Source: Aquilaria yunnanensis (taxonomy: Eukaryota > Streptophyta > Magnoliopsida > Malvales > Thymelaeaceae). Taken from it: a stretch of 64,000 nt of DNA. The position numbers were made by a program, and so were the translations under genes. Positions within the stretch are counted from its first letter, which is position 1. Every line of letters begins with the position of its first letter. Where the stretch lies: positions 49,412,501 to 49,476,500 of the forward strand of contig CM077596.1 in assembly GCA_039654915.1 (NCBI GenBank), written 5' to 3'. The notes under the pieces are model-generated. The model had not been told where the DNA came from. It was given only the letters and a program-made list of their open reading frames with translations, and did not search any database. This document shows, in pieces, positions 2,835 to 35,452 of the stretch.

Positions 2835-3493
2835 GTAAGGAATTGGGCTGTCACTATAATTTAGTGATGGGATTCGGGAACTACCCTCGGCCTTTTGATA
2901 AACCACCCTATGCATATAGAACTCCCCACTTAACCATAGAACTGACCACAGTATTCCTCCCATTTTACCAACGCCATAAGCATGTCCTTGTTATGCTATG
3001 TTGTTACTCTACACTTTTATTTTCTTCGTGTCTTATATTTATGGTTTTAATTCATTTTTCCATAATAGTTCATGAGTTGTTAATTGCTATTTAACTTGTT
3101 AATAACCTTATTTTTCTTTTGTTATACTTCCGTTCTGTGCAATTATTCTTCATGCATCAAAATCATGCATCAAACTATGCTAACTTTTTGGTCTTTCTAA
3201 TAATAACTAGAAGTCTTGAAGTTTCACAATAGTTGATAATCAAGCTCACTCATTGCATACATCCATTACATCAATCACACTCATATAAAATCTGAGAAAA
3301 ATAATCTCATTGCATGCATTCCATTACATGAATCACGTGCATATAAATTTTGATAAAAACATAATCTTATTTTGCATGCATGCATCCATTGCATAAATCA
3401 CATACATGTAGAGTCTAATAAAATAAATCTCACCTTAAAGGGGGTAAAATTGGACCTCAACATCGATATTCAACTCGGCTCCAAACAAAATTA
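2835..3493 (+). other. O1 untranslated leader (second half)
   Basis: Non-coding leader matching 34795-35452 and 45705-46350. It holds several copies of a short degenerate motif (GCATGCATCCATTACATCAATCAC followed by CATATAAA-TCTGATAAAA) at about 3240-3420. No primer site or LTR end remains because R interrupts it upstream. Confidence 0.75.
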
Positions 3494-5735
3494 ATGGCAG
3501 AACAAGCCGAAGGACGTCTTATAGAGATGGAGTCCAAGATAGAAAGTATGGCAGAACAGATGAGACAATTCATGGAACTAATCAAGGAGAAAACAACTCA
3601 AGTTCCCATCAAAGAAGCACAAGATCCCACTTATCCTCCGGGATTCACCCCGCAACGAGTCTCAGTCCAAGAAAACCTGTTTCAGGAATCAGGTCCGTCC
3701 GCTAGCATTCACCTGAAACGGGACACTGTATATGAAGAAAAGAAGACACCACCAAAGGAAGAAGGAGAATCTCAAAAGCTCGAAACAATAGAGAAGAGAC
3801 TGCGAGCCATTGAAGGAGGCACTATATTCGGATCTCTCTCAGTGGATGACCTATGCTTGGTACCAGATGTCATAATTCCTTCAGACTTTAAGGTGCCAGA
3901 TTTCATGAAATACGATGGAACGAGTGATCCCATCACTCACATCACATTGTTTCTAAGAAGACTACAACCACTCACAAAAGATGAAAAGGTGTGGATTGCA
4001 CTTTTTCAGGAAAGCCTCACAAAATCAGCATTACAGTGGTATCTAAGTCAAGGTCCAAGAAACATCAAAACTTGGAATGACCTTGCTCAGGCCTTCATCG
4101 GCAATTATAAACATGTTATGGACTTCGCTCCAGATCGTCAAACTCTCCAAAACATGGAGAAGAAAAAGCAAAAAACTTTCAAGGAATATGCCCAACGGTG
4201 GAGGGATTCAGCTGCACAAGTTTAGCCACCTATGACAGAAAGAGAAATGGTCACTTTATTTGTTCAGACGTTGCAGTACCCATATTATGACAAACTCATT
4301 GGCAATTCGGCAACCAATTTCACTGACGTAGTCATGTCTAGAGAAAGGATCAAGCATGGGATTAGGATCGGGAAGATTACTGAGTCCTTTAGTGATCCAA
4401 TGAAAAGAGGAGGACCCTCCAGAAGAAAAGATGAAGAAATACAACAAATAGGACGAGGAAGAGGGATTCCCCTCGTGGGTACTGTTGCTACCGGGCCTCG
4501 CCGATCCTACTCTACCAATAGGCCCAATGATTATTCTACCAATAAGCCCAACAATTATCCTCTCAACAGGCCTAATCAGTTACGGCCACCTGTTCCGACT
4601 TCTCCACAAAGGCCGAAAGAAGTTTTTGCGCCAATTCCTATGACTTACACTGAGTTATATCCAAAACTCATTGAAAGTCAACTTATCCATCCAATTCCTA
4701 CAAATCCATTTAAACCCCCATATCCAAGGTGGTATGACCCCAACATAACTTGCCCATATCATGATGGTGCTGTGGGCCACGGACTGGAAAATTGCATAGC
4801 ATTGAAGCGTATAGTCCAACAATTAATCGAGTCCAAGTGGTTGGACTTTTCCGATGAACCAAACGTCACTCACAATCCATTGCCGCCTCATCAAGCAAAA
4901 CCAATCAATATGATAGAAAGAGCACTGGCCGATGAAGAAGTCAGTCAATGATATCATAACCCCTCTCAAGCATGTATATTCATGGCTTGTAAAAGAAGGG
5001 ATTATCATGGGAAAGTCTTCTTTTGGAAACGAAAAAGTCGAAGATGAGGAGTGGTACAACTTTCATGACAGTAAGAGTCATTCTATCCAGGAATGCCCAG
5101 AATTCCGTGAAAGTCTACAAAGACTCATAGACTCCTCCCAACTCATCATTTTTATGTCAGATAAAGATGATGATGTGAATGTGATCATTAAAGAATAAGA
5201 AGTCAAGGCTATCCCAAGACCACTAGTCATACCAATTTCAAAACCTGTTCTTAAGCCTTTAAGAATTCAAGTCCCAAGGTCATTCCCATATAAATCAGAC
5301 AAAACTGTTCCATGGAGCTATGATTACACTTCTAACATCACATCAACTCCGTTAGAAGTTGGGAGTATAACTAGAAGTGGTCGGTGTTATTCTCCGGAGT
5401 AAATGAACAAGCTCCAACAAGATAAGAATGTTACAGACCCAACAAGTAGACCTCTTGATACAAATACATCCAAAGAGCAAGAGATGCCTCGAGCAGTAAC
5501 AGATGAGCAAGCTACTGAGTTTCTCAAACTCATAAAGCAAAGTGAATACAGCATCGTTGAGCAGTTGAACCGCCTGCCAACAAAGATCTCTATACTTTCA
5601 CTACTCATAAGCTCTGATGCTCATCGAGAAGCCCTCCTCAAAGTCTTGAATAAGGCCTATGTTGAGCCAGATATTTCAGTGAATAATTTTGACCACCTCG
5701 TCAACAACATCACCGCACAGAATCTTATCATATTC
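3494..5735 (+). pseudogene. gag: O1 gag(-pro) pseudogene
   Basis: Ty3/Gypsy gag, structural protein of the virus-like particle. The start is ATG at 3494. Residues 1-40 (MAEQAEGRL...) look coiled-coil. The retrotransposon gag domain lies at about 3840-4210 and includes WYLSQGP and YAQRW. A CX2HX5HX4C zinc-knuckle-like motif follows near 4750. Breaks are clear against the open copy at 35453: CAG to TAG at 4223, a 1-base insertion near 4920-4940, TGG to TAA near 5196, and CAA to TAA near 5399. The second knuckle has lost its first Cys (Tyr instead). Sequence ends before the protease, where it is fused to LTR DNA. This is the only copy retaining the whole central gag domain in one piece. It cannot make a full protein. 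Confidence 0.9.
3617..3623 (+). repeat. GCACAAG microhomology, left copy
   Basis: GCACAAG occurs here and at 4214-4220 in the O1 gag. In O3 the 597 bases between the two are absent and a single GCACAAG remains at 35576-35582, so these are the ends of the O3 gag deletion. Confidence 0.85.
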
Positions 5736-6739
5736 ATTAAAAATCCGCCGTCCTGCCGCCGTCGTCCTGCCGTCTCGCGCCACCGCGTCCAGCCGTTCCG
5801 CCGCCGCGCCCAGCCGTCCTGCCGCCGTCGCCCCGCGCCCTCGCCGCCGTCGTCCCGGCCGCCGTTGCCCTTGCCGCCGTCGCCCTGCGCCCCGCCGCCG
5901 TCGCCCCGTCGCCTGGCCCGCCATCGCCCCCAGCAGCCCCCCCCCCCCTGCCGTCGCGATTTCACGTTTCCTGTTAACAGGAAATTCAAATTTAAAATAA
6001 AAAAGGTACAACTCTCGTTTAATCCTTCATCTTTTCAATTTCTTTCACTTTGGTCACTAACCTTTTATTTTGTTCTTGCAGAATTAATTCCTAACTATTT
6101 TAATTTTTACTTGTTTTACTTATTTGTTATTATTACTAACCCTTTTTTTTTTGTTGTTATTAACTTACTAACAACTAACTTTTAATATTATTATTGTTAC
6201 TAACCTTTTAATTTTTGCATTATTACTAACTTTTATAATTGTTGTTAACAATTAATTAACTTTTTATTATTGTTGTTAATTAATTAATTTAATTAACTTG
6301 ACTAACTTTTTATTATTGTTGTTAATTAATTAATTTAATTAACTTGACTAACTTTTTATTATTGTTGTTAATTAATTAATTTAATTAACTTGACTAACTT
6401 TTTATTATTATTGTTAATCAATTAATTTAATTAAACTTGGCTAATTTTTATTATTGTTGTTAATTAATTTAATTAACTTTGCTAACCTTTATTATTATTT
6501 ATTTTTAAAGTGGATGGCCAAAAAGCCCCACTTTATTATTATTAATTTTCCTTTATATAATTTTTTTTTTAATTTAATTCACCTTTACCCTTACTTAAAT
6601 AAATAAATGAAAATTAAAAGAAGATTACTTTTTAATTAATTATTAAGCCTAATAAAAATAATTTTTTAAAAAAGCCAATTATTTTTATTTTTCTTTTATA
6701 AATTGAATAATTATTTAAATAATAAATAACTTTCACTAA

Positions 6740-6930
6740 AAAAAAAACTAAAAGAAAGAAAAGAAAAAGAAAAGATAAAAAAAGAAAAGAAAAAGAAAAG
6801 ATAAAAAAAGAAAAGAAAGAAAAGAAAAAAAAGAAAAGAAAGAAAGAAAAGAAAGAAAGAAAAGTAAAAAGAAAAGAAAAAGAAAGAAAAGAAAGAAAAG
6901 AAAAGAAAATATAAAGAAAGAAAAATCAAA
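6740..6930. repeat. AAAGA-rich low-complexity tract in LTR
   Basis: Long run of AAAGAAAAG-type purine repeats. It gives a Phe/Ser-rich open frame on the minus strand that is an artefact of composition. The counterpart in the 3' LTR is at 22595-22800. Confidence 0.85.
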
Positions 6931-7172
6931 ATTTTAAATTATTAATAAACCTAAAATTTCATGAACAAAAGATTTCCAAATTAATAATTAAACTAATAAT
7001 TGATTCCATAAAAATTAAATAATTAACTAAAAATTAAAATAAATTCCATATCTGGATGATCCGGCAAGATCTACGGTTTAGAAAATATCAACCTTTTTAA
7101 AATAAATAAATTAAATAAAAAGATAAAAATTCATATTTACGATATGGATTAATTGATTAAAATTTCATCAAA

Positions 7173-7356
7173 TTCCGTGTCCAAATGACTCGGCAGAGTC
7201 CATGGTTCGGAATCCAAATCTTCCGTGTCCAAATGACTCGGCAGAGTCCATGGTTCGGAATCCAAATCTTCCGTGTCCAAATGACTCGGCAGAGTCCATG
7301 GTTCGGAATCCAAATCTTCCGTGTCCAAATGACTCGGCAGAGTCCATGGTTCGGAA
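7173..7356 (+). repeat. 48-bp tandem repeat, 3.8 copies, in 5' LTR of E2
   Basis: Unit begins TTCCGTGTCCAAATGACTCG and contains CGGCAGAGTCCATGGTTCGG. Three full units and 40 bases of a fourth are seen. The matching site of the 3' LTR (about 23047-23132) has only two units, and the E4 LTRs have one. Confidence 0.95.
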
Positions 7357-7624
7357 GTATAAAATTCTATACAAATTAACTTAAAAATCCACATTTCGAC
7401 TAATTCAGTTAAAATTTCTAAGTTAACTGAAAATTATTTAAAAGCAAAGTAAAAAAAAATTAAAATCAACTAAGGTGCCAATTTTGGGCGCTATAACAAT
7501 ATTGTTTTAGCGTAACCGTACTCCCGATCCCCGAACTCTCGCAGACCAATTTTAAGGTGACCAATCAACCTAAGAAAACTGATTGGTGGCGACTCCCGAA
7601 AAAGACCCGCACGTTGCCACAGCT

Positions 7625-7642
7625 TGGCGACTCCACTGGGGA
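7625..7642 (+). promoter_or_regulatory. Primer binding site of E2 (tRNA-Arg type)
   Basis: TGGCGACTCCACTGGGGA lies three bases after the LTR end. Its reverse complement ends in CCA and matches the 3' end of plant tRNA-Arg(ACG) as I remember it. It primes minus-strand DNA synthesis. Confidence 0.8.
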
Positions 7643-8602: not shown

Positions 8603-9715
8603 ATGGCAGAGCAAACCGAAGGATGCCTCACAAATATTGAGTCCAAGAGAAAACATGGCCGAGCAAATAAAACAATTAATGGAGTTAATCAACGGGAAAG
8701 TAACCCAAGTCCTCGTCAAAAAATCACAAGATCTCACTTATCCTCATGGATTCACTTAACAACGGGTCCCAGCTCAAGAAAAGCTTTTTCATGACTCAGG
8801 CCCATCTGATAACATTCATTTAAGGCACAATCCAATTTTTGAAGGAAAGAAGCCCCTGCTTAAAAAAGAAAAGGATACTAAAAAAAAAACTCGAGGCCAT
8901 AGAAAAGAGATTTCGGGTCATTGAAGGAGGCACTATATTCTGATCTCTCTCAGTGAATGACCTCTGTTTAGTGCCAGATGTCGTAATCCCTTCAAACTTT
9001 AAGGTACCAGACTTTGTAAAATATGATGGAACAAGTGATCCCATCACTCACATCACGTTGTTTCTAAGAAGACTACAACCACTCTTAAAAGACGAGAATG
9101 TGTGGATAGCACTTTTTCAAGAAAGTCCTACAAAGTCAACACTACAATGGTATCTAAGTCAAGGCCCAAAGAACATTGGAACATGGAATGATCTCGCCCA
9201 AGCTTTCATCAGAAGTTACAAGCATGTGATGGACTTGGCCCCAGATCGCCGAACTTTCCAGAATATGGAGAAAAATGAACAAGAGACCTTTAAGGAATAT
9301 GCACAAAGGTGGAGAAATATCTATGATAGAAAGAGAACTGATCACCCTGTTTATCCAAACATTAAATAGACCATTTTATGAAAAACTATTTGGGGACACT
9401 TCAAGTAGCTTTTCAAATATGGTATTATCCGGAGAAAAGATTGAATTTGGAATCAAAACAGGAAAGTTGGTTGATTTTTCAATTGGAGGGTGTTTCAACG
9501 AAAGAAGCGAAGCTGTCCAAAACATCATCTCTAAGTCCTATGGTCTACTACCACTCATGTTATGAACGAAATGATATCCTATTGAGACTGTAATCTTCAA
9601 GGCTCCCTCATCAGCACCACATACCACTTATGGGAAGAAAGCTACTCAAGTCGATTCAATTTCCACAAGCTACAAACCTACTATCACCCATATCAATAGT
9701 AGCAAAGGCCAAGTG
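8603..9715 (+). pseudogene. gag: E2 gag-pro remnant
   Basis: Begins MAEQTEG like the other gag copies, then shifts frame. The recognisable gag domain lies at 8953-9310 (DLCLVPDVVIPSNFKVPDF, WYLSQGP, YAQRW). A further frame at 9314-9565 carries the segment after the domain (FIQTLNRPFYEKLFG). The zinc knuckles and protease are deleted: after about 9600 only the last few codons of the protease ORF can be aligned, at 9695-9712. No functional Gag is possible, in contrast to the open cargo genes downstream in the same element. Confidence 0.85.
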
Positions 9716-13150: not shown

Positions 13151-13179
13151 TCACATCAAAATGAAGTAGGATCTACTTT

Positions 13180-13287
13180 TCCGGTTAAGCGGCGGATACG
13201 GTACTCCGTGACTCTCAAGTCGGTTCTCTCAGTTGCCCATAATAACTGATTCCTTCACCCCTTCTTTCTTTTACTTCCCTCTAGAAA
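13180..13287 (+). promoter_or_regulatory. Upstream module of CRP1 (E2)
   Basis: Contains GGTTAAGCGGCGGATACGGT, ACTCCGTGACTCTCAAGTCGG and ATAACTGATTC, followed by a CT-rich leader to the ATG. A diverged copy lies before CRP2 at about 14023-14125, so the upstream region was duplicated with the gene. No clear TATA box is seen for CRP1. Confidence 0.45.
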
Positions 13288-13836
13288 ATGGATCCTACTC
13301 TTTCTGTCTTACGAAAATATTTTCCTTCTCTCCCAATGAACATTCTCAAAAAGATCTACCAAGTTCGCTGTGAACGATTAAGAGTTCTGATGCACAAAGG
13401 AATCCCTGAAGATGTGCGGTGGTTAATCGAAGCCAAGGTTCGTCTGGCAGGTGAAATCCCAGAGGCATTTGTGTCTCACATGCCTGGTATAGGCAGAAGC
13501 TCTTATGCCAAAAAACGAAGAGCGAAAAGGTTACGAGTCTGCCACAAATGTGGACGGTGGACTTGTAATACTAAATGTCGTTCTTTAGGGATGATCTCTG
13601 ATAATCGTGAAGATAAAATACGATTCATTAAGAATGGCCTGAGTAAGGACTCGTTGGATGATATCCAATTGACTCTTGAGACGCATTCTTGTGGATCTGT
13701 GCAACGTGAACTTCTTGGTTTATGGAGCATTTTTCATGAAGAACGAAACCGTTACAGTCCCGGGAATCTGACTGTAAATGACCTTGTTTGCCAGCTTGTA
13801 AGAAAACTGGATGGAAAGCAAAACCTCGACTCATAG
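13288..13836 (+). CDS. CRP1 (E2): cysteine-rich, virus-type nucleic-acid-binding protein
   Basis: 182 codons, intact, ATG at 13288 after a CT-rich leader. Residues 1-65 form a helix-rich, Leu/Arg-rich N-terminus. Residues 69-83 carry a G-x-SSYAKKRRAKRL basic stretch, suited to RNA/DNA binding and nuclear entry. Cys 85, 88, 93 and 97 form Cx2Cx4Cx3C, a likely zinc site. RFIKNGL follows at about 112-118, and a conserved HSCG at 133-136. This order resembles the cysteine-rich nucleic-acid-binding proteins of Betaflexiviridae (carlavirus NABP, vitivirus ORF5), known as silencing suppressors or regulators. Those are usually nearer 100 residues, so both ends here are extended. First of three tandem paralogues. 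Family assignment is by motif order only; function in the plant is unknown. An unrelated zinc-binding family is the main alternative. Confidence 0.7.
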   Translation: MDPTLSVLRKYFPSLPMNILKKIYQVRCERLRVLMHKGIPEDVRWLIEAKVRLAGEIPEAFVSHMPGIGRSSYAKKRRAKRLRVCHKCGRWTCNTKCRSLGMISDNREDKIRFIKNGLSKDSLDDIQLTLETHSCGSVQRELLGLWSIFHEERNRYSPGNLTVNDLVCQLVRKLDGKQNLDS

Positions 13837-14125
13837 AAGCCATTAATGCCTTTACTGGACGTAAAACCAGTGGAAGATGTGAGCCACAGTCACAATTACT
13901 GTACATACAGTTTGTTATATTTGGAAAAGTTTGCATTTTCTTTTGACAGATGTACATGCTCCCCTAAGTGTAATCGACACGTTATCCCTTTTCATCACTA
14001 TAAATGCGTGTTCTTCCTTCTGATTAAGCAGTGGATAAGATACCCCGTGACTTCTAAAGTCGGTTATTCCAGTCTCCTACAATAACTGATTCATTTCCCT
14101 CTTCTCTCAAATTCTTCTCTCATCA
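13837..14125 (+). promoter_or_regulatory. CRP1-CRP2 intergenic promoter module (E2)
   Basis: Holds GAGCCACAGTCACAATTACT and GTACAT, which recur after CRP2 and CRP3, then TATAAAT at 13999-14005, 121 bases before the CRP2 ATG, and a second copy of the GGATA-GATACCCCGTGACTTC motif. The repeated layout suggests each ORF has its own promoter. Confidence 0.5.
13999..14005 (+). promoter_or_regulatory. TATA box of CRP2 (E2)
   Basis: CATCACTATAAATGCGTG; the same CATCACTATAAAT block precedes CRP2 and CRP3 in E2, O3 and E4. Confidence 0.5.
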
Positions 14126-14674
14126 ATGGATTCTACTCTTTCTGCACTGCGAAAATACTTTCCTTCTCTTCCAATAAAAGTCCTTAAAAAGATCTACCTT
14201 GCTAGATGTGAAAGAATTAGAGTTTTTACACGCAAAGGCATTCCCGATAATGTGCAGTGGATAATTGAAGCTAAGGTCCGTCTGGCGGGTGAAGTTCCAG
14301 ATGCATTTATGCCCCGCATGCCCGGTTTAGGTAAAAGCCGTTATGCCAAAAGGCAAAGAGCAAAGAGACTAGGCGTGTGTTATAAATGTGGGCGATGGAA
14401 TTGTAATACTAAATGTCGCTCTTTAGGATACATCTCCACAAATCGTGAAGATAAAAGAAAATTCATTAAGAATGACCTGCGTAAGGAATCTCTGGAAGAT
14501 ATCCGAGAGACTCTTGAAACGCATTCTTGTGGAAAAGTGCAAGGTCAAATTGTCAAATTGTGGAGGACTTACCATAAAGAACGAGACCGTTACAGTCTTG
14601 GGAATGTGACTGTAAACGACCCTGTCTGCCAGCTTGTAAGAAAACTGGATGGGAAGCAAGTCCTCGACTCATAG
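14126..14674 (+). CDS. CRP2 (E2): cysteine-rich virus-type protein
   Basis: 182 codons, intact, ATG at 14126 in ATCAATGG. Colinear with CRP1: basic SRYAKRQRAKRL stretch, then Cys 85, 88, 93 and 97 in Cx2Cx4Cx3C with the sequence CYKCGRWNCNTKC, KFIKNDL in the place of RFIKNGL, HSCG, and a C-terminus NDPVCQLVRKLDGKQ. It differs from CRP1 at many positions but not in length, so the duplication is older than the spread of this element family. Virus-type nucleic-acid binding is inferred as for CRP1. The O3 copy is broken (41760), and the E4 copy has a stop at codon 146. Confidence 0.7.
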   Translation: MDSTLSALRKYFPSLPIKVLKKIYLARCERIRVFTRKGIPDNVQWIIEAKVRLAGEVPDAFMPRMPGLGKSRYAKRQRAKRLGVCYKCGRWNCNTKCRSLGYISTNREDKRKFIKNDLRKESLEDIRETLETHSCGKVQGQIVKLWRTYHKERDRYSLGNVTVNDPVCQLVRKLDGKQVLDS

Positions 14675-14894
14675 AAGGCATTGAAGCCATTACTAGATAT
14701 AAATCAGTGAAAGATGAGAGCCACAGTCATGATTGCTGTACATATAAGCTGTCATTTGTCTTTTCTTTTAACAATAATGTACTTGCTTCTATAAGTGTAA
14801 TTAACGCATTATCCCTTTCATCACTATAAATATGTGTTAGTTATTTTCGTTTCCTACAATCACTAATTTATTCTCTTAAATACCTCCTTCATCA
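14675..14894 (+). promoter_or_regulatory. CRP2-CRP3 intergenic promoter module (E2)
   Basis: Repeats the GAGCCACAGTCA...GTACATATAAGCTGTC, TTTTCTTTTAACAATAATGTAC and CATCACTATAAAT order of the previous spacer. TATAAAT at 14825-14831 lies 64 bases before the CRP3 ATG. Confidence 0.5.
14825..14831 (+). promoter_or_regulatory. TATA box of CRP3 (E2)
   Basis: TATAAAT in CATCACTATAAATATGTG, with a CT-rich leader to the ATG at 14895. Confidence 0.5.
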
Positions 14895-15443
14895 ATGGAG
14901 TCTTCTCTTTCCGCCCTACGAAAGTATTTTCCTTCCTTCCCAATAAATGTTCTTAAAAAGATTTATCAAGCTAGATGTGAACGATTTAGAGTATTTATGC
15001 ACAAAGGCATTCCTGATAATGTGCGGTGGCTAATTGAAGCTAAGGTTCGTTCAGCTGGTGAAGTTCCCGAAGAGTTCTTTCCCCGTATGCTCGGCTTTGG
15101 TAAAAGCGCTTATGCCAAAAAAAGAAGAGCAAAGAGGCTAGGTGTTTGTCATAATTGTGGATGGTGGATTTGCAGCAATAAATGTCGTTCTCCAGGAGTG
15201 CTCACCAGAAATCGTAATGATAGAATAAAATTCATCAAGAATGGCTTGCGTAAGGAATCTCTGGAAGATATTCGAGAGGTTCTTAAAGCGCATTCTTGCG
15301 GAATAGTGCAATTTGAGGTTGTTGGATTATGGATAATTTTCCAAAAAGAACGAGATCGTTATAGTCTTGGGAATCTGACTTTAAACAACCCAGTTTGCCA
15401 GTTTGTGAGAAAACTGGATGGGATGCAAATCACCGATTCATAG
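14895..15443 (+). CDS. CRP3 (E2): cysteine-rich virus-type protein
   Basis: 182 codons, intact. Same architecture as CRP1 and CRP2: SAYAKKRRAKRLGVC basic stretch, CHNCGWWICSNKC giving Cx2Cx4Cx3C, KFIKNGL, HSCG, C-terminal VRKLDGMQ. Two aromatic residues (WW) sit between the second and third Cys, where CRP1 and CRP2 have RW. The E4 copy at 51481 is also open with few changes; O3 has lost its 3' part. It is followed by an array of promoter-like repeats and then LOG. Function inferred only from family resemblance. Confidence 0.7.
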   Translation: MESSLSALRKYFPSFPINVLKKIYQARCERFRVFMHKGIPDNVRWLIEAKVRSAGEVPEEFFPRMLGFGKSAYAKKRRAKRLGVCHNCGWWICSNKCRSPGVLTRNRNDRIKFIKNGLRKESLEDIREVLKAHSCGIVQFEVVGLWIIFQKERDRYSLGNLTLNNPVCQFVRKLDGMQITDS

Positions 15444-15569
15444 AAAGCATTGAAGCCATTACTGGATGCAAAGCCAGTGAAAGACGAGGATCAAAGTCAC
15501 GATTACTGTACGTGCTAGCTGTCGCTTTTGCAAATTTTCCTCCCCTTTTGGTAATAATGTATCCACTCC

Positions 15570-15577
15570 TGACGTGA
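15570..15577 (+). promoter_or_regulatory. as-1-like TGACG motif
   Basis: TGACGTGA at the end of one 87-bp unit. TGACG is the core bound by plant TGA-type bZIP factors. Position upstream of a TATA box fits a promoter, but no binding is shown. Confidence 0.35.
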
Positions 15578-15742
15578 ACCAAAGTCACGATTACTGTACG
15601 TGCTAGCTGTCACTTTTGAAATCTTCCTCCCCTTTCGGTGATAATGTATCCACTCCTGACATGAGCCATAGTCACGATACTGTACATGCTAGCTGTCGCT
15701 TTTGAAATTTTCCTCCTCCTTTGACAATCACGTACCTACTCC

Positions 15743-15750
15743 TGACGTAA
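15743..15750 (+). promoter_or_regulatory. as-1-like TGACGTAA motif
   Basis: TGACGTAAG occurs here and in E4 at 52231-52239, 170-180 bases upstream of the LOG TATA box. It has the core of the as-1 element of plant pararetrovirus promoters. Confidence 0.4.
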
Positions 15751-15920
15751 GCTACAGTAGTGACTACTGTATATGCTAGCAGCTATTTTGAAAATTTTCC
15801 TCCTCTTTTAACGATAATGTACCCATACCTGACCAGAGTCATACCCGTGACTACTATGAATAGCTGGCAATAATGTATCCATTCTTGAAAAATAAAATTA
15901 TTGCCTTATCTCTTCATCTC

Positions 15921-15927
15921 TATAAAT
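15921..15927 (+). promoter_or_regulatory. TATA box of LOG (E2)
   Basis: TATAAATATA in CATCTCTATAAATATA, 40 bases before the ATG at 15961. The same block precedes the E4 LOG. Confidence 0.5.
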
Positions 15928-15960
15928 ATATCTTCTTTTCTCACAAGGGTAAGGATAGGA

Positions 15961-16590
15961 ATGGAGAAAACCCCAACTCGTAAATCCCGAAGTATTTGTG
16001 TATTTTCTGGGGCTTTTCCTGGAAAAGATGAAGAGTATTTAAAAGCAGCCAACCATTTGGGTAGAGTATTAGCTGAGCGAAAAATACATTTAGTTTATGA
16101 AGGAGGTAGTGTCGGATTAATGGGAGGTGTAGCATCAGCAGCATCTCTAGGAGGAAGTCAAGTTCTGGGCATTATCCCTGGACCTCTGAAATTTATTTCT
16201 GGGGGCACGATTGGAGAAGAATTAGTGGTTAAAAATTTGCAAGAGCATGTGTTACAAATGCTTTTAAATGCTGATGCTTTTATCGCTCTACCAGGTGGTT
16301 TTGGCACATTGGGAGAAGTCTTTCAAATTGCTTCCATGGCCCAACTTAATTTGCATAAGAAACCCATTGGGCTTTTAAATGTTAACAATTTCTTTACAGG
16401 TCTGATAGCTTTTATGGATAATGCTATGCAGAAGAATTTCATATCAAGAGTGGCACGGCGAATCATAATATCCGCAACAACTGCTGAAGAATTGCTACAT
16501 AAAATACAAGCTTTTGTTCCTGAACCAGATCCAACGATGATCCAAATAGACTGGGCACGACAGTCTTTCCCAACCAGTTCCGTCCCATAA
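15961..16590 (+). CDS. LOG-like cytokinin phosphoribohydrolase homologue (E2)
   Basis: 209 codons, intact and intronless; ATG at 15961 (MEKTPTRKS), because no earlier ATG lies in frame. LOG enzymes release active cytokinin bases from riboside 5'-monophosphates. Seen: CVFSGAFPG (13-21), SVGLMG (50-55), ADAFIALPGGFGTLGE (104-119) with the signature PGGxGTxxE and its Glu at 119, and RRIIISATTAEEL. It resembles the LOGL10-type plant branch. Oddities: the usual catalytic Arg in the RK-x2-M segment is His96 here; Glu47 replaces the first Gly of GGGSVGLMG; the tail PSFPTSSVP-type extension is unusual. Plant LOG genes normally have introns, so capture through mRNA is likely. Catalysis is doubtful. 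It is retroelement cargo, not a host locus. Confidence 0.85.
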   Translation: MEKTPTRKSRSICVFSGAFPGKDEEYLKAANHLGRVLAERKIHLVYEGGSVGLMGGVASAASLGGSQVLGIIPGPLKFISGGTIGEELVVKNLQEHVLQMLLNADAFIALPGGFGTLGEVFQIASMAQLNLHKKPIGLLNVNNFFTGLIAFMDNAMQKNFISRVARRIIISATTAEELLHKIQAFVPEPDPTMIQIDWARQSFPTSSVP

Positions 16591-17100
16591 TTGTCCTTTA
16601 CCCAGCCTGTTGAAACATTGTGGAAGAAGAAGCGATCTGATCCGTTTTTCTTGTCCTTTCGTTTTAATTATCAGCATTTTCTTTCGTATTTCAGTTTTTC
16701 TTTTCAGGGAATTTCGTTATCTTATAATATAGTTTCGTCCATGCTGATATTAAAACCATAGGACAATGCCTTTAGGTTGGAATGGCTGAGTAAAGAGTAA
16801 TTTTTGTTACTCTTGAGACGCATCCTATTAGGTCTACTAGGCATAACATTTTGGGGTAGTTAAGCTTTAACCTTATTTGGATGACATATCTCACAAGGGA
16901 ATCTATATTTACTGAAGAAAATATTAGATGAACCTTGGATATTGATTCCAAACATCCGTTCCCTTTACATAATTTGTTAGCGATATTGTCATCATCAAAA
17001 TTCACTCATTTTATCGAAGTCTAAAGTTTCACACTCGCCTATTATGCAAATTCACACTTTCGAAGAAAATTATTCCAATTCTAATTCCTTTCATATAAAT
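16591..17100 (+). other. LOG 3' flank (E2)
   Basis: Conserved after every LOG copy (16591, 23718, 53082, 62653). It includes GAAGAAGAAGCGATC(T/C)GATCC, a pyrimidine run TTTCAGTTTTTCTTTTCAGG that looks like a 3' splice site, and AGGTCTACTAGGCATAACATTTTG. Probably 3' untranslated sequence captured with the gene or of the element. Confidence 0.5.
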
Positions 17101-20100
17101 TTCGCTCGAGGTTCAAGGAGAGTTCCTTAACCTCATTCAATCAATTTTTCAAATGATAGGAAAGTTCCTATCGTCGAGGTTAAAAGAATTTTCCTTAACC
17201 TCAGAATCATCAATTTTCCTTCAAACGATAGGAGAGTTCCGATCATCGAGGTTCTAAGGTAGGGCCCTTAACCTTAAAATCATCAATTTTCCTTCAAACG
17301 ATAGTAGAGTTCCAATCGTCGAGGTTCTAAGGTAGGACCCTTAACCTCAAAATAATCAATTTTACTTCAAACGATATGAGAGTTCCTATCGTCGAGGTTC
17401 TAAGGTAGGACCCTTAACCTCAAAAACAATTAATTTTCCTTCAAACGATAGGAGAGTTCCTATCGTCGAGGTTCTAAGGTAGGGCCCTTAACCTCAAAAT
17501 CATCAATTTTCCTTCAAACGATAGGAGAGTTCCTATCGTCGAGGTTCTAAGGTAGGGCATTTAACCTCAAAATCATCAATTTTACTTCAAACGATAGGAG
17601 AGTTCCTATCGTCGAGGTTCTAAGGTAGGACCCTTAACCTCAAAAACAATCAATTTTCCTTCAAACAATAGGAGAGTTCCTATCGTCGAGGTTCTAAGGT
17701 AGAGCCCTTAACCTCAAAATCATCAATTTTCCTTCAAACGATAGGAGAGTTCCTATCGTCGAGGTTCTAAGGTAGGACCCTTAACCTCAAAATCATAAAT
17801 TTTCCTTTAAACGATAGGAGAGTTCCTATCATCGAGGTTCTAAGGTAGGGCCCTTAACCTCAAAATCATCAATTTTACTTCAAACGATAGGAGAGTTCCT
17901 ATCGTCGAGGTTCTAAGGTAGGACCCTTAACCTCAAAATCATCAATTTTCCTTCAAACGATAGGAGAGTTCCTATCGTCGAGGTTCTAAGGTAGGACCCT
18001 TAACCTCAAAACAATCAATTTTACTTCAAACGATAGGAGAGTTCCTATCGTCGAGGTTCTAAGGTAGGACCCTTAACCTCAAAATCATCAATTTTCCTTC
18101 AAACGATAGGAGAGTTCCTATCGTCGAGGTTCTAAGGTAGGACCCTTAACCTCAAAACAATCAATTTTACTTCAAACGATAGGAGAGTTCCTATCATCGA
18201 GGTTCTAAGGTAGGACCCTTAACCTCAAAACAATCAATTTTCCTTCAAACGATAGGAGAGTTCCTATCGTCGAGGTTATAAGGTAGGACCCTTAACCTCA
18301 AAATCATCAATTTTCCTTCAAACGATAGGAGAGTTCCTATCGTCGAGGTTCTAAGGTAGGACCCTTAACCTCAAAACAATCAATTTTACTTCAAACGATA
18401 GGAGAGTTCCTATCGTCGAGGTTCTAAGATAGGACCCTTAACCTCAAAATCATCAATTTTCCTTCAAACGATAGGACAGTTCCTATCGTCGAGGTTCTAA
18501 GGTAGGACCCTTAACCTCAAAACAATCAATTTTACTTCAAACGATACGAGAGTTCCTATCGTCGAGGTTCTAAGGTAGGACCCTTAACCTCAAAACAATC
18601 AATTTTACTTCAAACGATAGGAGAATTCCTATCGTCGAGGTTCTAAGGTAGGACCCTTAACCTCAAAACAATCAATTTTACTTCAAACGATAGGAGAGTT
18701 CCTATCGTCGAGGTTCTAAGGTAGGACCCTTAACCTCAAAATCATCAATTTTCCTTCAAACGATAGGAGAGTTCCTATCGTCGAGGTTCTAAGGTCGGAC
18801 CCTTAATCTCAAAACAATCAATTTTACTTCAAACGATAGGAGAGTTCCTATCGTCGAGGTTCTAAGGTAGGACCCTTAACCTCAAAATCATCAATTTTCC
18901 TTCAAACGATATGAGAGTTCCTATCGTCGAGGTTCTAAGGTAGGACCCTTAACCTCAAAACAATCAATTTTACTTCAAACGATAGGAGAGTTCCTATCGT
19001 CGAGGTTCTAAGGTAGGACCCTTAACCTCAAAATCATCAATTTTCCTTCAAACGATAAGAGAGTTCCTATCGTCAAGGTTCTAAGGTAGGACCCTTAACC
19101 TCAAAACAATCAATTTTACTTCAAACGATAGGAGAGTTCCTATCGTCGAGGTTCTAAGGTAGGACCCTTAACCTCAAAATCATCAATTTTCCTTCAAACG
19201 ATATGAGAGTTCCTATCGTCGAGGTTCTAAGGTAGGACCCTTAACCTCAAAACAATCAATTTTACTTCAAACGATAGGAGAGTTCCTATCGTCGAGGTTC
19301 TAAGGTAGGACCCTTAACCTCAAAATCATCAATTTTCCTTCAAACGATAGGAGAGTTCCTATCGTCGAGGTTCTAAGGTAGGACCCTTAACCTCAAAACA
19401 ATCAATTTTACTTCAAACGATAGGAGAGTTCCTATCATCGAGGTTCTAAGGTAGGACCCTTAACCTCAAAACAATCAATTTTCCTTCAAACGATAGGAGA
19501 GTTCCTATCGTCGAGGTTATAAGGTAGGACCCTTAACCTCAAAATCATCAATTTTCCTTCAAACGATAGAAGAGTTCCTATCGTCGAGGTTCTAAGGTAG
19601 GACCCTTAACCTCAAAACAATCAATTTTACTTCAAACGATAGGAGAGTTCCTATCGTCGAGGTTCTAAGGTAGGACCCTTAACCTCAAAATCATCAATTT
19701 TCCTTCAAACGATAGGACAGTTCCTATCGTCGAGGTTCTAAGGTAGGACCCTTAACCTCAAAACAATCAATTTTGCTTCAAACGATAGGAGAGTTCCTAT
19801 CGTCGAGGTTCTAAGGTAGGACCCTTAACCTCAAAACAATCAATTTTACTTCAAACGATAGGAGAATTCCTATCGTCGAGGTTCTAAGGTAGGACCCTTA
19901 ACCTCAAAACAATCAATTTTACTTCAAACGATAGGAGAGTTCCTATCGTCGAGGTTCTAAGGTAGGACCCTTAACCTCAAAATCATCAATTTTCCTTCAA
20001 ATGATAGGAGAGTTCCTATCGTCGAGGTTCTAAGGTCGGACCCTTAATCTCAAAACAATCAATTTTACTTCAAACGATAGGAGAGTTCCTATCGTCGAGG

Positions 20101-20786
20101 TTCTAAGGTAGGACCCTTAACCTCAAAATCATCAATTTTCCTTCAAACGATATGAGAGTTCCTATCGTCGAGGTTCTAAGGTAGGACCCTTAACCTCAAA
20201 ACAATCAATTTTACTTCAAACGATAGGAGAGTGCCTATCGTCGAGGTTCTAAGGTAGGACCCTTAACCTCAAAATCATCAATTTTCCTTCAAACGATAAG
20301 AGAGTTCCTATCGTCAAGGTTCTAAGGTAGGACCCTTAACCTCAAAACAATCAATTTTACTTCAAACGATAGGAGAGTTCCTATCGTCGAGGTTCTAAGG
20401 TAGGACCCTTAACCTCAAAATCATCAATTTTCCTTCAAACGATAGGAGAGTTCCTATCGTCAAGGTTCTAAGGTAGGACCCTTAACCTCAAAACAATCAA
20501 TTTTACTTCAAACGATAGGAGAGTTCCTATCGTCGAGGTTCTAAGGTAGGACCCTTAACCTTATTCAAACAATTTTCCTTCAAACGATAGGAGAGTTCCT
20601 ATCGTCGAGGTTCTAAGGTAGGACCCTTAACCTCAAAACAATCAATTTTTCTTCAAACGATAGAAGAGTTCCTATTGTCGAGGTTCTAAGGTAGGACCCT
20701 TAACCTCAAAATTATCAAATTTTCCCTTCAACGATAGGAGAGTTCTTATCGCAGAGGCTCTAAAAAAATTTTCCTTAACCACATAG
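17101..20786 (+). repeat. Satellite of ~50 hairpin-forming 73-bp units (E2)
   Basis: The 73-base unit holds two inverted repeats. Hairpin 1 is CGATAGGA-GAGT-TCCTATCG, with perfect 8-base arms. Hairpin 2 pairs GAGGTT(CT)AAGG with CCTTAACCTC around a short loop. Two linker versions alternate (AAACAATCAATTTTACTTC and AAATCATCAATTTTCCTTC). Rare variants recur exactly 1241 bases apart, = 17 units (for example GGTTATAAGG at 18274 and 19515), so a 17-mer higher-order unit is duplicated. No coding potential. Confidence 0.95.
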
Positions 20787-20887
20787 TTTAGGCGGCGAGA
20801 AGGTTCTCAATGGCTAGCTAAGACGGATGAAATTTGGTAACTACTTTGCATACATCATGTCTCATGAAGCATGCAAAGGGGGGCAGT
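20787..20887 (+). promoter_or_regulatory. Pre-LTR segment and polypurine tract (E2)
   Basis: GGCGAGAAGGTTCTCAATG, GCATACATCATGTC and CATGAAGCATGC are conserved before each 3' LTR. AAAGGGGGGCAG abuts the LTR and is the plus-strand primer (polypurine tract). Confidence 0.85.
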
Positions 20888-23399
20888 TGTTGACACCCAA
20901 TTTCGTCCGGCCTTTTTTTTTAAAAATTAAAAAAAAATTAATTAAAAAAAATGATTATTATTATTATTATTATTGCTAAAAAATTTTAATTATGTTAATT
21001 AGTTTAAAATATATTTTTATTTTGAGAAGATTTGATTTAAAATAATATATGTGTGAATATGTATGTGTTTGAAATAAAAATAAAATTTCAGAAAAAATGA
21101 CAAAAAAATTAAAAGTTTGAGGTAAAAATGACAAAATTCAGAAGTTTTGGACAAAATTGACAAGTTCTGAAAGTTTCATGAGCTTTGGGTAATTTTTCGC
21201 GTCAATTTTGGGCCTAAACGGACGTTTCTGGCCCGAATTGACAGAAAACGTTAAAATTGTCAAAATCAGAAGCTTCTGAGCTTATCCAGAGCTGGAGTAA
21301 CGTAAAGGACTGAAACTGTCATTTTACCAATTTAAAAGATAAGTTTGAGATTTTTTATTAATTTATCCGTCCACAGTTTAGCTAAGCTCCTTCTATAAAT
21401 ACCCCCCCAAATTCAGTGCTGAACATAGAAAATCAGAGAAAAAATTTCAGAGCTCCGTTTTAAAAACGGAAAAATAGAAGCCTTAGTCCTAGCCTCTCCT
21501 CACTCTGCCAAAACAGTCCCAAAATTATTTTTTCTTACGTTTCGACTACCTTCTTCCTCCGTTTTCTCTTTCTTTCTTTTGCTGTTGCCATCCTATCCCG
21601 CTGCCGTCGCCCTGCCTGCCGCCGTCGTCCTGCCGTCTCGCGCCACCGCGTCCAGCCGTTCCGCCGCCGCGCCCAGTCGTCCTGCCGCCGTCGTCCCGGC
21701 CGCCGTTGCCCTTGCCGCCGTCGCCCTGCCGCCCTGCGCCCCGCCGCCGTCGCCCCGTCGCCTGGCCCGCCGTCACCCCCAGCAGCCCCCCCCCCCCCCT
21801 GCTGTCGCGATTTCACGTTTCCTGTTAACAGGAAATTCAAATTTAAAATAAAAAAGGTACAACTCTCGTTTAATCCTTCATCTTTTCAATTTCTTTCACT
21901 TTGGTCACTAACCTTTTATTTTGTTCTTGCAGAATTAATTCCTAACTATTTTAATTTTTACTTGTTTTACTTATTTGTTATTATTACTAACCCTTTTTTT
22001 TTTGTTGTTATTAACTTACTAACAACTAACTTTTAATATTATTATTGTTACTAACCTTTTAATTTTTGCATTATTACTAACTTTTATAATTGTTGTTAAC
22101 AATTAATTAACTTTTTATTATTGTTGTTAATTAATTAATTTAATTAACTTGACTAACTTTTTATTATTGTTGTTAATTAATTAATTTAATTAACTTGACT
22201 AACTTTTTATTATTGTTGTTAATTAATTAATTTAATTAACTTGACTAACTTTTTATTATTATTGTTAATCAATTAATTTAATTAAACTTGGCTAATTTTT
22301 ATTATTGTTGTTAATTAATTTAATTAACTTTGCTAACCTTTATTATTATTTATTTTTAAAGTGGATGGCCAAAAAGCCCCACTTTATTATTATTAATTTT
22401 CCTTTATATAATTTTTTTTTAATTTAATTCACCTTTACCCTTACTTAAATAAATAAATGAAAATTAAAAGAAGATTACTTTTTAATTAATTATTAAGCCT
22501 AATAAAAATAATTTTTTAAAAAAGCCAATTATTTTTATTTTTCTTTTATAAATTGAATAATTATTTAAATAATAAATAACTTTCACTAAAAAAAAAACTA
22601 AAAGAAAGAAAAGAAAAAGAAAAGATAAAAAAAGAAAAGAAAAAGAAAAGATAAAAAAAAGAAAAGAAAAAAAAGAAAAGAAAGAAAGAAAAGAAAGAAA
22701 AGAAAAAGAAAAGATAAAAAAAAAGAAAGAAAGAAAAGTAAAAAGAAAAGAAAAAGATAGAAAAGAAAGAAAAGAAAAGAAAATATAAAGAAAGAAAAAT
22801 CAAAATTTTAAATTATTAATAAACCTAAAATTTCATGAACAAAAGATTTCCAAATTAATAATTAAACTAATAATTGATTCCATAAAAATTAAATAATTAA
22901 CTAAAAATTAAAATAAATTCCATATCTGGATGATCCGGCAAGATCTACGGTTTAGAAAATATCAACCTTTTTAAAATAAATAAATTAAATAAAAAGATAA
23001 AAATCCATATTTACGATATGGATTAATTGATTAAAATTTCGTCAAATTCCGTGTCCAAATGACTCGGCAGAGTCCATGGTTCGGAATCCAAATCTTCCGT
23101 GTCCAAATGACTCGGCAGAGTCCATGGTTCGGAAGTATAAAATTCTATACAAATTAACTTAAAAATCCACATTTCGACTAATTCAGTTAAAATTTCTAAG
23201 TTAACTGAAAATTATTTAAAAGCAAAGTAAAAAAAAATTAAAATCAACTAAGGTGCCAATTTTGGGCGCTATAACAATATTGTTTTAGCGTAACCGTACT
23301 CCCGATCCCCGAACTCTCGCAGACCAATTTTAAGGTGACCAATCGACCTAAGAAAACTGATTGGTGGCGACTCCCGAAAAAGACCCGCACGTTGCCACA
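20888..23399 (+). repeat. 3' LTR of E2 (2512 bp)
   Basis: TGTTGACACCC to GTTGCCACA. TATAAATA at 21394-21401, GC-rich island 21590-21810, candidate intron-like stretch near 21857-21932, TTAATTAA repeats 22090-22330, AAAGA tract 22595-22800, two 48-bp units at 23047-23132. The internal part is nearly identical to the truncated 5' LTR. Confidence 0.95.
21394..21401 (+). promoter_or_regulatory. TATA box in E2 3' LTR
   Basis: TATAAATA about 506 bases into the LTR. As a 3' LTR promoter it could drive read-through into the LOG fragment that follows at 23400. Confidence 0.6.
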
Positions 23400-23717
23400 G
23401 ATGCTTTTATCGCTCTACCAGGTGGCTTTGGCACATTAGGAGAAGTCTTCCAAATCGCTTCCATGGCCCAACTTAATTTGCATCAAAAACCCATTGGGCT
23501 GTTAAATGTTAACTATTTCTTTGCAGGTCTATTATCTTTTATGAATCGTGCTGTGAAGCAGAAGTTTATCCCTGAGGTGGCACGACGAATCATAATATCC
23601 GCAACAACTGCTGAAGAATTGCTAGATAAAATGCAAGCTTTTGTTCCTGAACCAGATCCAGCGATGATCCAAATAGACTGGGCACGACAGTCTTTCCCAA
23701 CCAGTTCCGTCCCATAA
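23400..23717 (+). pseudogene. LOG 3' fragment of O1
   Basis: Begins at the codons for DAFIALPGGFGTLGE and runs to the normal stop at 23715-23717, so the N-terminal half is missing because E2 inserted here. The frame stays open backwards into the LTR end (from 23361) without an ATG. It belongs to the NYFFAGLLSFMNRA version of LOG, also found in E4, not the NNFFTGLIAF version of E2 and O3. Confidence 0.9.
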
Positions 23718-24235
23718 TTGTCCTTTACCCGGCCTGTTGAAGCATTGTGGAAGAAGAAGCGATCTGATCCATTTTTCTTGTCCTTTCGTTTTAATTATCA
23801 GCATTTTCTTTCGTATTTCAGTTTTTCTTTTCAGGGAATTTCGTTATCTTATAAGATAGTTTCGTCCATGCTGATATTAAAACCATGGGACAATGCCTTT
23901 AGGTTGGAATGGCTGAGCAAAGAGTAATTTTTATTACTCTTAAGACACATCCTATTAGGTCTACTAGGCATAACATTTTGGGGTAGTTAAGCTTTAACCT
24001 TATTTGGATGACATATCTCACAAGGGAATCTATATTTACTAAAGAAAATATTAGATGAACCTTGGATATTGATTCCAAACATCCGTTCCCTTTACATAAT
24101 TTGTCAGTGTTATTGTCATCATCAAGATTCACTCATCTTATCGAAGTTTAAATTTTTGCACTCGCCTATTATGAAAATTCACACTTCCGAATAGAACATT
24201 TCAACTTCGATTGTCTGAGGTACTTAAAAAGGAAG
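23718..24235 (+). other. LOG 3' flank (O1)
   Basis: Copy of 16591-17080, then a transition into satellite sequence. No gene. Confidence 0.5.
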
Positions 24236-34100: not shown

Positions 34101-34452
34101 CGGGTGACTCGGCAGAGTCCATGGTTCGAATTAAATCTTCCGTGTCCGGGTGACTCGGCAGAGTCCATGGTTCGGAAGTATAAAATTTTATCCAAATTAA
34201 TTACCAAAAATCCACATCCGACTAAATAATTCAGTTAAAATTTCTAAATTTAAAAAATTAACTGAAAATTATTTAAAAGCAAAGCAAAACAAAATTAAAA
34301 TCAATTAAGGTGCCAATTTTGGGCGTTATAACAAAGTTGTTTTAGCGTAACCGTACTCCCGATCCCCGAACTCTCGCAGACCAATTTTAAGGTATCCAAT
34401 CGACCTAGGTAAACTGATTGGTGGCGACTCCCGAAAACTCAACGTTGCCACA
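31136..34452 (+). repeat. 5' LTR of O3 (3317 bp, long type)
   Basis: TGTTGACACCC to GTTGCCACA. TATAAATA 31621-31628, GC island 31800-32055. It is ~0.9 kb longer than the E4 LTRs because of an AT-rich block at about 32900-33960. That block is bounded by two copies of a CCATATCC-ATGATCCG-CAGGATC motif (32898 and 33964) and filled with degenerate ~120-base repeats (CATATAAAT-TTTAGTTTCTTTA). R has the same block. Two 48-bp-type units lie at about 34092-34177. Confidence 0.93.
31621..31628 (+). promoter_or_regulatory. TATA box of O3 5' LTR
   Basis: TATAAATA in CCCCTATAAATAGGGG, an imperfectly palindromic context, 486 bases into the LTR. Confidence 0.65.
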
Positions 34453-34473: not shown

Positions 34474-35452
34474 CCCTTTGTTTGTGAGTCAAGCCTAGAA
34501 GTTGATTTATTTTGATTTACTTTGCTTATTATATGTGGATTTATATATTATATTTACTTAGATAAACATGCATAATGCATTCACAATATGAAGCTCTATA
34601 CCCGAGCTTCCTCAAATCGAACACGTTCTTTCTAAGCGGAATTGGTGTTGTTGTCCTTGTGAGGCCATGGTCTTCAAGCCTTCACTGGTTTCAAAGTAGC
34701 AAAGTAGTGTATTGCCTCTTGAGACGGTTAGTCTCTGCATGGGTCCACGAAAAGCTACGACTCGAATTAATCCTTTCCTTACATAAACCCTAGAGGGTAA
34801 GGAATTGGGCTGTCACTATAATTTAGTGATGGGATTCGGGAACTATCCCTTGCCTTTTTTATAAACCACCCTATGCATATAGAACTCCCCACTTAACCAT
34901 AGAACTGACCACAGCATTCCTCCCATTTACCAACGCCATAAGCATGTCCTTGTTATGCTATGTTGTTGCTCTACACTTTTATTTTCTTCGTGTCTTATAT
35001 TTATGGTTTGAATTCATTTTTCCATAATAGTTCATGAGTTGTTAATTGTTATTTAACTTATTAATAACCTTATCTTTATTTTCTTGTACTTCTGTTTTGT
35101 GCAATTACTCTTCATACATCAAAACCACGCATTAAACTTTACTAACTTTTTGGTCTTTATAATGACAACTAGAAGTTTTGAAGTTCCACGATAATGGATA
35201 ATCAAACTCACTCATCGCATGCATTACATTAATCACGTGCATATAAAGTCTGATAAAAACATAATCTCATTGCATACATCCATTACATCAATCACGTACA
35301 TACAAAGTCTGATAAAAACATAATCTTATTTTGCATGTAGGCATCCATTGCATAAATCACATACGTGTAGAGTCTAATAAAATAAATCTTACTTTTAAAA
35401 GGATAAAATTGGACCTCAACACCGATATTCAACTCTGCTCCAAACAAGATTA
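34474..35452 (+). other. O3 leader
   Basis: Leader shared with E2 and E4. It holds the 72-codon ORF listed separately and three GCATGCAT(C)CATTACATCAATCAC-like motifs at 35215-35370. Confidence 0.65.
34575..34793 (+). CDS. Conserved 72-codon leader ORF (O3)
   Basis: ATG at 34575 (MHSQYEALYPSF). The protein contains SGIGVVVLVRPWS and VVYCLLRRLVSAW, with no family I recognise. The same ORF is open in E4 (45483-45701) with a few changes and frameshifted in E2. It lies upstream of gag, where it could act as an upstream ORF. Weak as a coding call because conservation may only reflect shared ancestry. Confidence 0.25.
   Translation: MHSQYEALYPSFLKSNTFFLSGIGVVVLVRPWSSSLHWFQSSKVVYCLLRRLVSAWVHEKLRLELILSLHKP

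Follow-up and report, generated by a model that had tools for sequence, protein, structure and literature searches.

A cysteine-rich protein and LOG gene module in non-autonomous Ty3/gypsy-type retrotransposons of Aquilaria yunnanensis

A stretch of 64,000 nt from Aquilaria yunnanensis (GenBank assembly GCA_039654915.1, contig CM077596.1, positions 49,412,501 to 49,476,500; hereafter the window) carries long terminal repeat (LTR) retrotransposons in which three genes for cysteine-rich proteins (CRP1, CRP2, and CRP3) and a LOG-like gene lie, in this order, between gag and the 3' LTR. The block was found in the elements E2, O3, and E4, members of a family of non-autonomous Ty3/gypsy-type retrotransposons with paired LTRs ending in TG...CA, a primer binding site (PBS), a polypurine tract (PPT), and, in E4 and several further copies, a 5-bp target duplication. 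Judged by alignment, two retrotransposon types have the block in common, and it behaves as a module, since each of the five pol-bearing sequences compared begins its homology to E2 at base 13177. In our preferred reading, to which we give a probability of about 0.6, an accessory gene module of Ty3/gypsy elements was passed to an element without pol, was amplified there, and serves the element.

Elements in the window and across the genome

The window is plant-like nuclear DNA (35% GC) with nested LTR elements, from a source genome of 842 Mb in 345 contigs. An earlier reading of the letters by themselves (the sequence-only reading) had placed the four open reading frames (ORFs) of the block at 13288 to 16590, and this observation was confirmed as a whole. 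The features of the block in E2, with the evidence for each, are as follows.

13177..16852, + strand: CRP-LOG module common to pol-bearing elements (blastn with L001 and L040-L043; sharp 5' edge at 13177)
13177..13287, + strand: conserved non-coding leader of CRP1 (aligned across E2, E4, L001, L040-L043, and the CRP2 leader)
13288..13836, + strand: CRP1, 182 aa (Viral_NABP 6.7e-7, Carla_C4 1.4e-5)
13999..14005, + strand: TATAAAT box 127 bp before CRP2 (13/13 copies, all seven columns invariant)
14126..14674, + strand: CRP2, 182 aa (Viral_NABP 1.4e-6, Carla_C4 1.1e-4)
14825..14831, + strand: TATAAAT box 70 bp before CRP3 (12/12 copies, all seven columns invariant)
14895..15443, + strand: CRP3, 182 aa (Carla_C4 2.3e-5, Viral_NABP 2.4e-5)
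15492..15843, + strand: CRP-trailer repeats between CRP3 and LOG (TRF, self-BLAST)
15921..15927, + strand: TATAAAT box 40 bp before LOG (12/12 copies at -40 to -48; 4/7 alignment columns invariant)
15961..16590, + strand: LOG-like gene, intronless, 209 aa (Lysine_decarbox 7e-29; 2a33 (At2g37210) 3.5e-50)

Using tblastn, CRP matches were obtained at 13288-15443 in E2, 40938-42919 in O3 (CRP3 cut), and 49887-52026 in E4, and LOG was found in E2 and E4 and as pieces at 23400-23714 (O1) and at 42916-42993 and 62419-62649 (O3), which bears out the earlier statement that E2, E4, and O3 share the block and that O1 keeps its LOG end. The membership of E4 also held, with LTRs (42992-45360 and 60082-62439) that are 98.8% identical and end in TG...CA (termini TGTTGACA...TTGCCACA), a perfect GAATG target duplication on either side, and the PPT AAGGGGGGCAGC. 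E4 was inserted within the LOG of O3, and E2 interrupts O1, with the gag of O1 on one side and its LOG tail on the other. The 5' LTR of E2 is truncated (start ~5752), so no target duplication is visible for this element. All four frames are open only in E2; in E4, CRP2 and LOG contain one stop each, and O3 has one stop in CRP1 and a premature one in CRP2, with CRP3 and LOG both cut. The gag of E2 matched Retrotrans_gag (Pfam, 7.7e-7), and the gag-protease frame of O3 (714 aa) matched Asp_protease_2 at 6.7e-5, slightly below the Pfam cut-off. Because the interval from gag to CRP1 is alignable non-coding sequence in E2, O3, E4, and the copies sampled below, elements of this type are judged to have gag and to lack pol, on this alignment and not on a direct Pfam scan of all frames for reverse transcriptase. 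The PBS of E2 (TGGCGACTCCACTGGGGA) is probably tRNA-Arg-like and the gag of the family is presumably Ogre/Tat-like. A PBS of this kind fits the Ogre/Tat lineage, as Ogre families use a tRNA-Arg primer (PMC2533021), but is no proof of it.

Searching the Aquilaria genome with CRP1 gave 8220 first-look candidates, and the best 150 scored were 96-100% identical over 182 aa, with 146 of the 150 free of stops. Ten copies were taken stepwise down this list from several chromosomes, a choice that favors copies whose CRP1 is intact and close to that of E2. CRP1 was present in 10/10, CRP2 in 10/10 (one frameshifted), CRP3 in 9/10, and LOG, aligned over its full length, in 10/10; a downstream PPT was seen in all ten, a downstream LTR in nine, and an upstream LTR in nine, the tenth upstream stretch being interrupted by an insertion of ~4.7 kb. 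The first 12 bases of the PBS matched in six of the ten, and, as the pattern was exact, the misses are not evidence of absence. All ten sit in elements, which is the outcome of the genome search that the sequence-only reading had proposed for further CRP-LOG blocks enclosed by LTRs. Chance ORFs were considered as an explanation and rejected, as all ten share the layout apart from the one without CRP3.

The LTR pairs could be measured in nine of the ten copies, with identities over the longest aligned piece of 100% (1614 bp visible), 99.96, 99.93, 99.86, 99.6, 99.2, 97.6 (825 bp), 97.1, and 96.5% (629 bp; the second piece of that pair 90.3%). Perfect 5-bp target duplications (AACCC, TTAAC, TAATG, ACTAT, and CTTGC) were present in five of the eight copies with both ends visible; of the other three, two begin behind a PPT as in tandem elements and one gave no match. 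The near-identical LTR pairs together with the target duplications show that some insertions of the family are very recent.

Two side observations were made in these copies. A PPT stands directly before the 5' LTR in L010 and L024, as if two elements shared an LTR in tandem, and an insertion of ~4.7 kb (oriented ~3260-7926) in the non-coding region of L012 has an open frame of 713 aa.

The module in pol-bearing elements and its proteins

A CRP also lies ~200 bp behind an integrase frame (rve, Integrase_H2C2) on a plant-like contig of 3330 bp, L001, and passes the Viral_NABP cut-off while being slightly below that of Carla_C4. In a public genome collection, this contig is assigned to a Candidatus Nomurabacteria metagenome-assembled genome, which is probably a case of contamination. 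With the L001 integrase, 27148 candidates were obtained in the Aquilaria genome, 86 of which were scored, and the best four of these (L040-L043) were taken as the pol-bearing sample; their integrases match that of L001 at 70-72% identity and all have stops (decayed). CRP follows pol in all four, again at a distance of ~200 bp from the integrase, and LOG, in two frames, follows as well in L041. The main homology to E2 begins at base 13177 in 5/5 (L001 and L040-L043; blastn) and reaches furthest 3' at 16829-16852 in the three copies showing the far side of LOG (L040, L042, and L043); L042 and L043 have additional short and weak matches to E2 (E 3e-4 to 3e-5) out of line with the main homology. 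A non-coding leader of roughly 70 bp is common to E2-type and pol-bearing elements. The sequence-only reading had described the block as cargo of the E2 family, which indeed carries it, but this proved too narrow, as the module also occurs behind pol elsewhere.

In the CRP tree (105 rows; matches <165 aa dropped), the three window CRPs, the pol-borne CRPs of the same genome, P0001, and P0005 formed one clade (100/98). In the LOG tree (122 rows; matches >235 aa dropped), the window LOGs, P0121, and the L041 piece formed one clade (100/99), and 119 rows were separated from two Arabidopsis LOGs and one bacterial LOG (100/97). For other species, linkage was looked for as CRP and LOG matches on equal-sized contigs, which gave 4 coincidences for contigs of at least 1300 bp (mean 0.53, maximum 2 at 120 offsets) and 7 for all sizes <100 kb (mean 1.17, maximum 4). 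This is indirect and suggests that CRP and LOG are linked in other plants too. Judged by eye, the pol-bearing CRP elements are putative members of the Athila lineage.

A pyrimidine tract followed by CAG stands right before the CRP leader in L001 (1629-1661), resembling a splice acceptor, and a donor-like GGTAAGT lies behind pol in L040-L043; from these motifs, the CRP of pol-bearing elements may be spliced like retroviral env. Among the matches to the L001 integrase in the Aquilaria genome, a second group (~60-62% identity) has many copies with open frames of 1809 aa.

The three CRPs of E2 are 67-71% identical to one another. The view that they are of virus type was upheld by the profile search, in which the window CRPs exceeded the curated Pfam cut-offs (Viral_NABP E 7e-7 to 2e-5, Carla_C4 E 1e-5 to 1e-4). 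In an alignment of 15 CRPs, made up of the 3 window proteins and 12 relatives, matches at E ≤0.01 were found to Carla_C4 in 15/15 and to Viral_NABP in 14/15, and the four Cys and KxRRAK are at least 90% conserved across 65 sequences. The structure model of CRP1 was poor (mean pLDDT 61.5). Of its first 30 viral matches, 27 nevertheless carry the names of flexivirids, mostly as nucleic-acid-binding protein or silencing suppressor (3 unnamed); none reached E ≤0.001, so that this part of the proposed structure check gave only a hint of likeness to viral CRPs. A PDB profile search with the CRPs gave 0 matches, and IMG/VR scans for viral relatives of CRP or LOG found none. In viruses, CRPs of this kind carry a nuclear signal rich in Arg together with a CCCC or CCHC finger, and suppression of silencing is the usual activity of viral CRPs (PMC11213338).

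Relatives of the CRPs are numerous (248 at E up to 1), the named sources among the 120 listed being Populus, Xanthoceras, and Orobanche. The best 120 of the 599 matches to a profile of the CRP core, built so as to leave out plant proteins of full length, added Parasponia and Striga; the few named among them are plants, none is named as a virus, and most are nameless. No viral row could be entered in the CRP tree, so the gene may have moved from viruses to elements or the other way. Among the 120 listed of 7775 relatives of this LOG type, Reevesia, Populus, Paulownia, and Diplodiscus were each represented by more than one entry.

The LOG of E2 contains the PGGxGTxxE motif as PGGFGTLGE and is open, with two conserved motif positions substituted (the Arg before PGGxGTxxE and a Gly of the GGG motif). 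The Arg is kept in all ten sampled genome copies, though some carry other changes, and is lost in E2 and E4, so the family looks able to yield a normal LOG while the E2 and E4 copies probably are not. With Arg and Gly substituted, the idea that the E2 LOG could be taken for granted as a working enzyme was rejected.

Ratios of nonsynonymous to synonymous substitution (Ka/Ks) were calculated from codon alignments of the window and sampled copies, leaving out CRP2 of L030 (frameshifted), CRP3 of O3 (cut), and absent genes. The means were 0.17 for CRP1 (13 copies; the gene by which copies were picked), 0.43 for CRP2 (12), 0.33 for CRP3 (11), and 0.25 for LOG (12). Pairs within the window ranged from 0.22 to 0.98, the highest being CRP2 of O3 and E4 with just 3 synonymous changes, and CRP1 of E2 against the CRP of L001 gave 0.22 at a Ks of 0.90. 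The stretch before LOG is promoter-like and similar to those of CRP2 and CRP3. CRP1 has no TATAAAT upstream; TATAAAA was seen there in 2/13 copies.

Function, alternatives, and related systems

In the preferred reading, the module would belong to the accessory genes of plant Ty3/gypsy retrotransposons and stand behind pol, where retroviruses carry env, its form in pol-bearing elements being leader and CRP, sometimes followed by LOG. In the lineage of this plant, a pol-bearing type would have donated its 3' part, leader and 3' non-coding sequence included, to a gag-bearing element without pol; the CRP unit would then have been triplicated, with TATA boxes on the downstream genes, and the pol-less family would have reached high copy number until recently, presumably by means of the pol of another element. 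The CRPs would be nuclear zinc-finger proteins that bind nucleic acids and dampen RNA silencing or alter host transcription as their flexivirid relatives do, and LOG would convert cytokinin ribotides to active cytokinin and promote division of the cells expressing the element, so that together they would raise its chance of reaching dividing or germ-line cells. Most likely, as far as can be told from sequence, the module serves the element in these two ways, through the CRPs on silencing or transcription and through LOG on local cytokinin and division. What the analysis shows directly is the anatomy, the copy numbers, the recent insertions, the common 5' edge of the module, the low Ka/Ks, and the conserved TATA boxes. 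The sequence-only reading is partly supported, in that an LTR-element family carries virus-type CRPs with a LOG gene, has further copies across the genome, and matches viral profiles; the weakened silencing or changed proliferation that it had proposed would be possible effects of the module.

Several points weigh against this reading. Both the activities and the direction of transfer are inferred from sequence, and a helper element was not found, no genome search aimed at one having been completed. The best viral structural match to CRP1 had an E of 0.013, with none at ≤0.001 (poor model). Because copies were picked by protein score to the CRP1 of E2, intact frames are favored and the Ka of CRP1 is lowered; CRP2 is under weak constraint (0.43; 0.98 for the O3-E4 pair), and the copies bearing TATA boxes are related, not independent. 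CRP2 is broken in three of the ten sampled copies and LOG has stops in four, some copies with open frames lack a finger Cys (L038, in CRP3) or a Gly of a LOG motif (L033), and the motif Arg before PGGxGTxxE is absent from the LOG of both E2 and E4. LOG was present in just one of the four pol-bearing copies, so the pairing of CRP with LOG is not obligatory.

The broken CRP2 and LOG copies, the CRP2 ratio of 0.98 between O3 and E4, and the motif residue lost from the E2 and E4 LOGs would also be expected if the block were inert, hitch-hiking cargo, with a non-autonomous element having captured the 3' part of another, passive amplification followed by decay after insertion, and a low Ka/Ks that reflects past constraint in the pol-bearing ancestor. 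We regard this as unlikely, because among the ten sampled copies alone Ka/Ks was 0.14 for CRP1 (biased by the picking of copies), 0.41 for CRP2, 0.32 for CRP3, and 0.23 for LOG, CRP3 is stop-free in 9/9 although it was not used for picking, and the TATA boxes before CRP2 and CRP3 do not vary between copies. Ordinary host genes lying among repeats are a very improbable explanation; many such proteins are listed in databases as plain plant "hypothetical proteins", but all ten sampled copies, spread over several chromosomes, are in elements that show LTR, PBS, or PPT features, LOG is intronless, and CRP1 candidates run into thousands. The idea of host genes in place was therefore rejected.

A different question is that of ultimate origin, for which the CRPs may be endogenous viral elements, a flexivirus gene having integrated and then been picked up by a retrotransposon. 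This is compatible with the accessory-module reading and is possible, though short of probable. The profile matches to carlavirus-type nucleic-acid-binding proteins and the weak structural matches, mostly to flexivirid CRPs, speak for it, and betaflexivirus replicase-like DNA has been reported in cucumber (PMC3136472); however, the plant CRP family is large and diverse, every copy whose surroundings were examined sits in a retrotransposon, and the CRP tree had no placeable viral sequence to settle the direction. A stronger form of the accessory-module reading is tentative and somewhat unlikely. In it, a transferable module in the position of env would join an RNA-virus-type silencing suppressor or nuclear regulator and a cytokinin-activating enzyme under TATA promoters of its own, move between retrotransposon lineages, blunt silencing, and push division; if so, the elements would behave like DNA-based counterparts of symptom-causing RNA viruses.

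The element CRPs share with those of carlaviruses and betaflexivirids (PF01623, PF05515) a basic stretch, a four-Cys finger, and profile matches above the cut-off, but are 182 aa long and extend past the matched stretch at either end, are encoded by LTR retrotransposons, and occur here in three copies. For the LOG half, two Athila-like elements in the work of Steinbauerova et al. of 2011 are said to resemble LOGL4. Gypsy consensus sequences with a LOG (YgdH) domain are reported from Citrus and, once a filter is turned off, from Populus trichocarpa (PMC9289625, citing Steinbauerova et al. 2011), so that a LOG-like extra domain in Ty3/gypsy elements is common to that report and ours; in the part covered, it is silent on a partner such as the CRPs and on TATA boxes, triplication, and transfer of a module, and its screen by a reverse transcriptase marker would miss elements without pol. 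Of the pair for which the sequence-only reading knew no described element, the LOG half is thus already on record, and no description of the CRPs was found. No publication describing CRP-LOG retrotransposons was found in titles, abstracts, and passages, subscription papers and supplements being outside this coverage, and CRPs are unmentioned in section 12 of PMC9289625 and in the covered parts of PMC6317226 and PMC11963269.

A Gypsy lineage of Phalaenopsis with an AlkB RNA demethylase (PMC9289625) is likewise large and holds a domain also found in flexivirids, but there the protein is a different one in a single ORF with activity in vitro, whereas a multi-gene module known from sequence is present here. 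Retand/Tat elements with antisense Transposase_28 ORFs resemble the present family in that they have an extended internal region, extra ORFs, non-autonomous copies, and tandem repeats, which there precede the 3' LTR, and differ in that the extra ORFs here are in sense and of viral and LOG type (PMC11963269 and PMC6317226). The antisense extra ORFs of plant retrotransposons are described as without similarity to other transposons or viruses in a review (PMC7264820). For most extra ORFs that plant retrotransposons carry, no use is known; the CRP-LOG module is readable on both halves, and it combines low Ka/Ks, at least 146 stop-free CRP1 copies in one genome, very recent insertions, and two retrotransposon types. 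Whether plant retrotransposons carry silencing suppressors and growth regulators of their own becomes directly testable, and the module bears on the origin of the flexivirid CRPs.

Other features of the window

The other features of the window are given below, with the evidence in parentheses. An Rfam scan of 7600-17100 gave 0 matches.

2835..5736, + strand: O1 internal region, gag and the stretch preceding the protease (sequence comparison)
5752..7622, + strand: E2 5' LTR, start truncated (pairs with 21615-23400, 91.8% over a gapped alignment)
7625..7642, + strand: E2 PBS TGGCGACTCCACTGGGGA (sequence following the LTR end)
8603..9526, + strand: E2 gag remnant, frameshifted (tblastn with O1 gag; Retrotrans_gag)
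17125..20751, + strand: E2 73-bp satellite array between LOG and the 3' LTR (TRF)
20876..20887, + strand: PPT preceding the E2 3' LTR (sequence; downstream PPT probe matched in 10/10 sampled copies)
20888..23399, + strand: E2 3' LTR (self-alignment, sequence)
23400..24191, + strand: O1 LOG tail and downstream sequence (93.6% to 16273-17064)
31136..34452, + strand: O3 5' LTR (self-alignment, sequence)
35399..37543, + strand: O3 gag-protease open frame, 714 aa (ORF; Pfam)
40938..42991, + strand: O3 CRP1 and CRP2 (one premature stop each), partial CRP3, and LOG piece (tblastn)
42987..42991, + strand: GAATG target duplication, left of E4 (sequence)
42992..45359, + strand: E4 5' LTR (self-alignment, sequence)
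49887..53081, + strand: E4 CRP1, CRP2 (one stop), CRP3, and LOG (one stop) (tblastn)
60082..62438, + strand: E4 3' LTR (self-alignment, sequence)
62439..62443, + strand: GAATG target duplication, right of E4 (sequence)
62440..62649, + strand: O3 LOG tail past E4 (tblastn, self-alignment)

Large satellite arrays were found at 17125-20751, 24261-25646, 53628-59960, and 63305-64000, behind LOG and, where visible, before the 3' LTR. The main units measure 73 bp, 140 bp, and 81 bp, the length varying among family members, and the arrays contain a palindrome resembling GATAGGAGAGTTCCTATCG. An LTR of a related element lies in reverse orientation at 882-2834 and adjoins the O1 internal region exactly at 2835.

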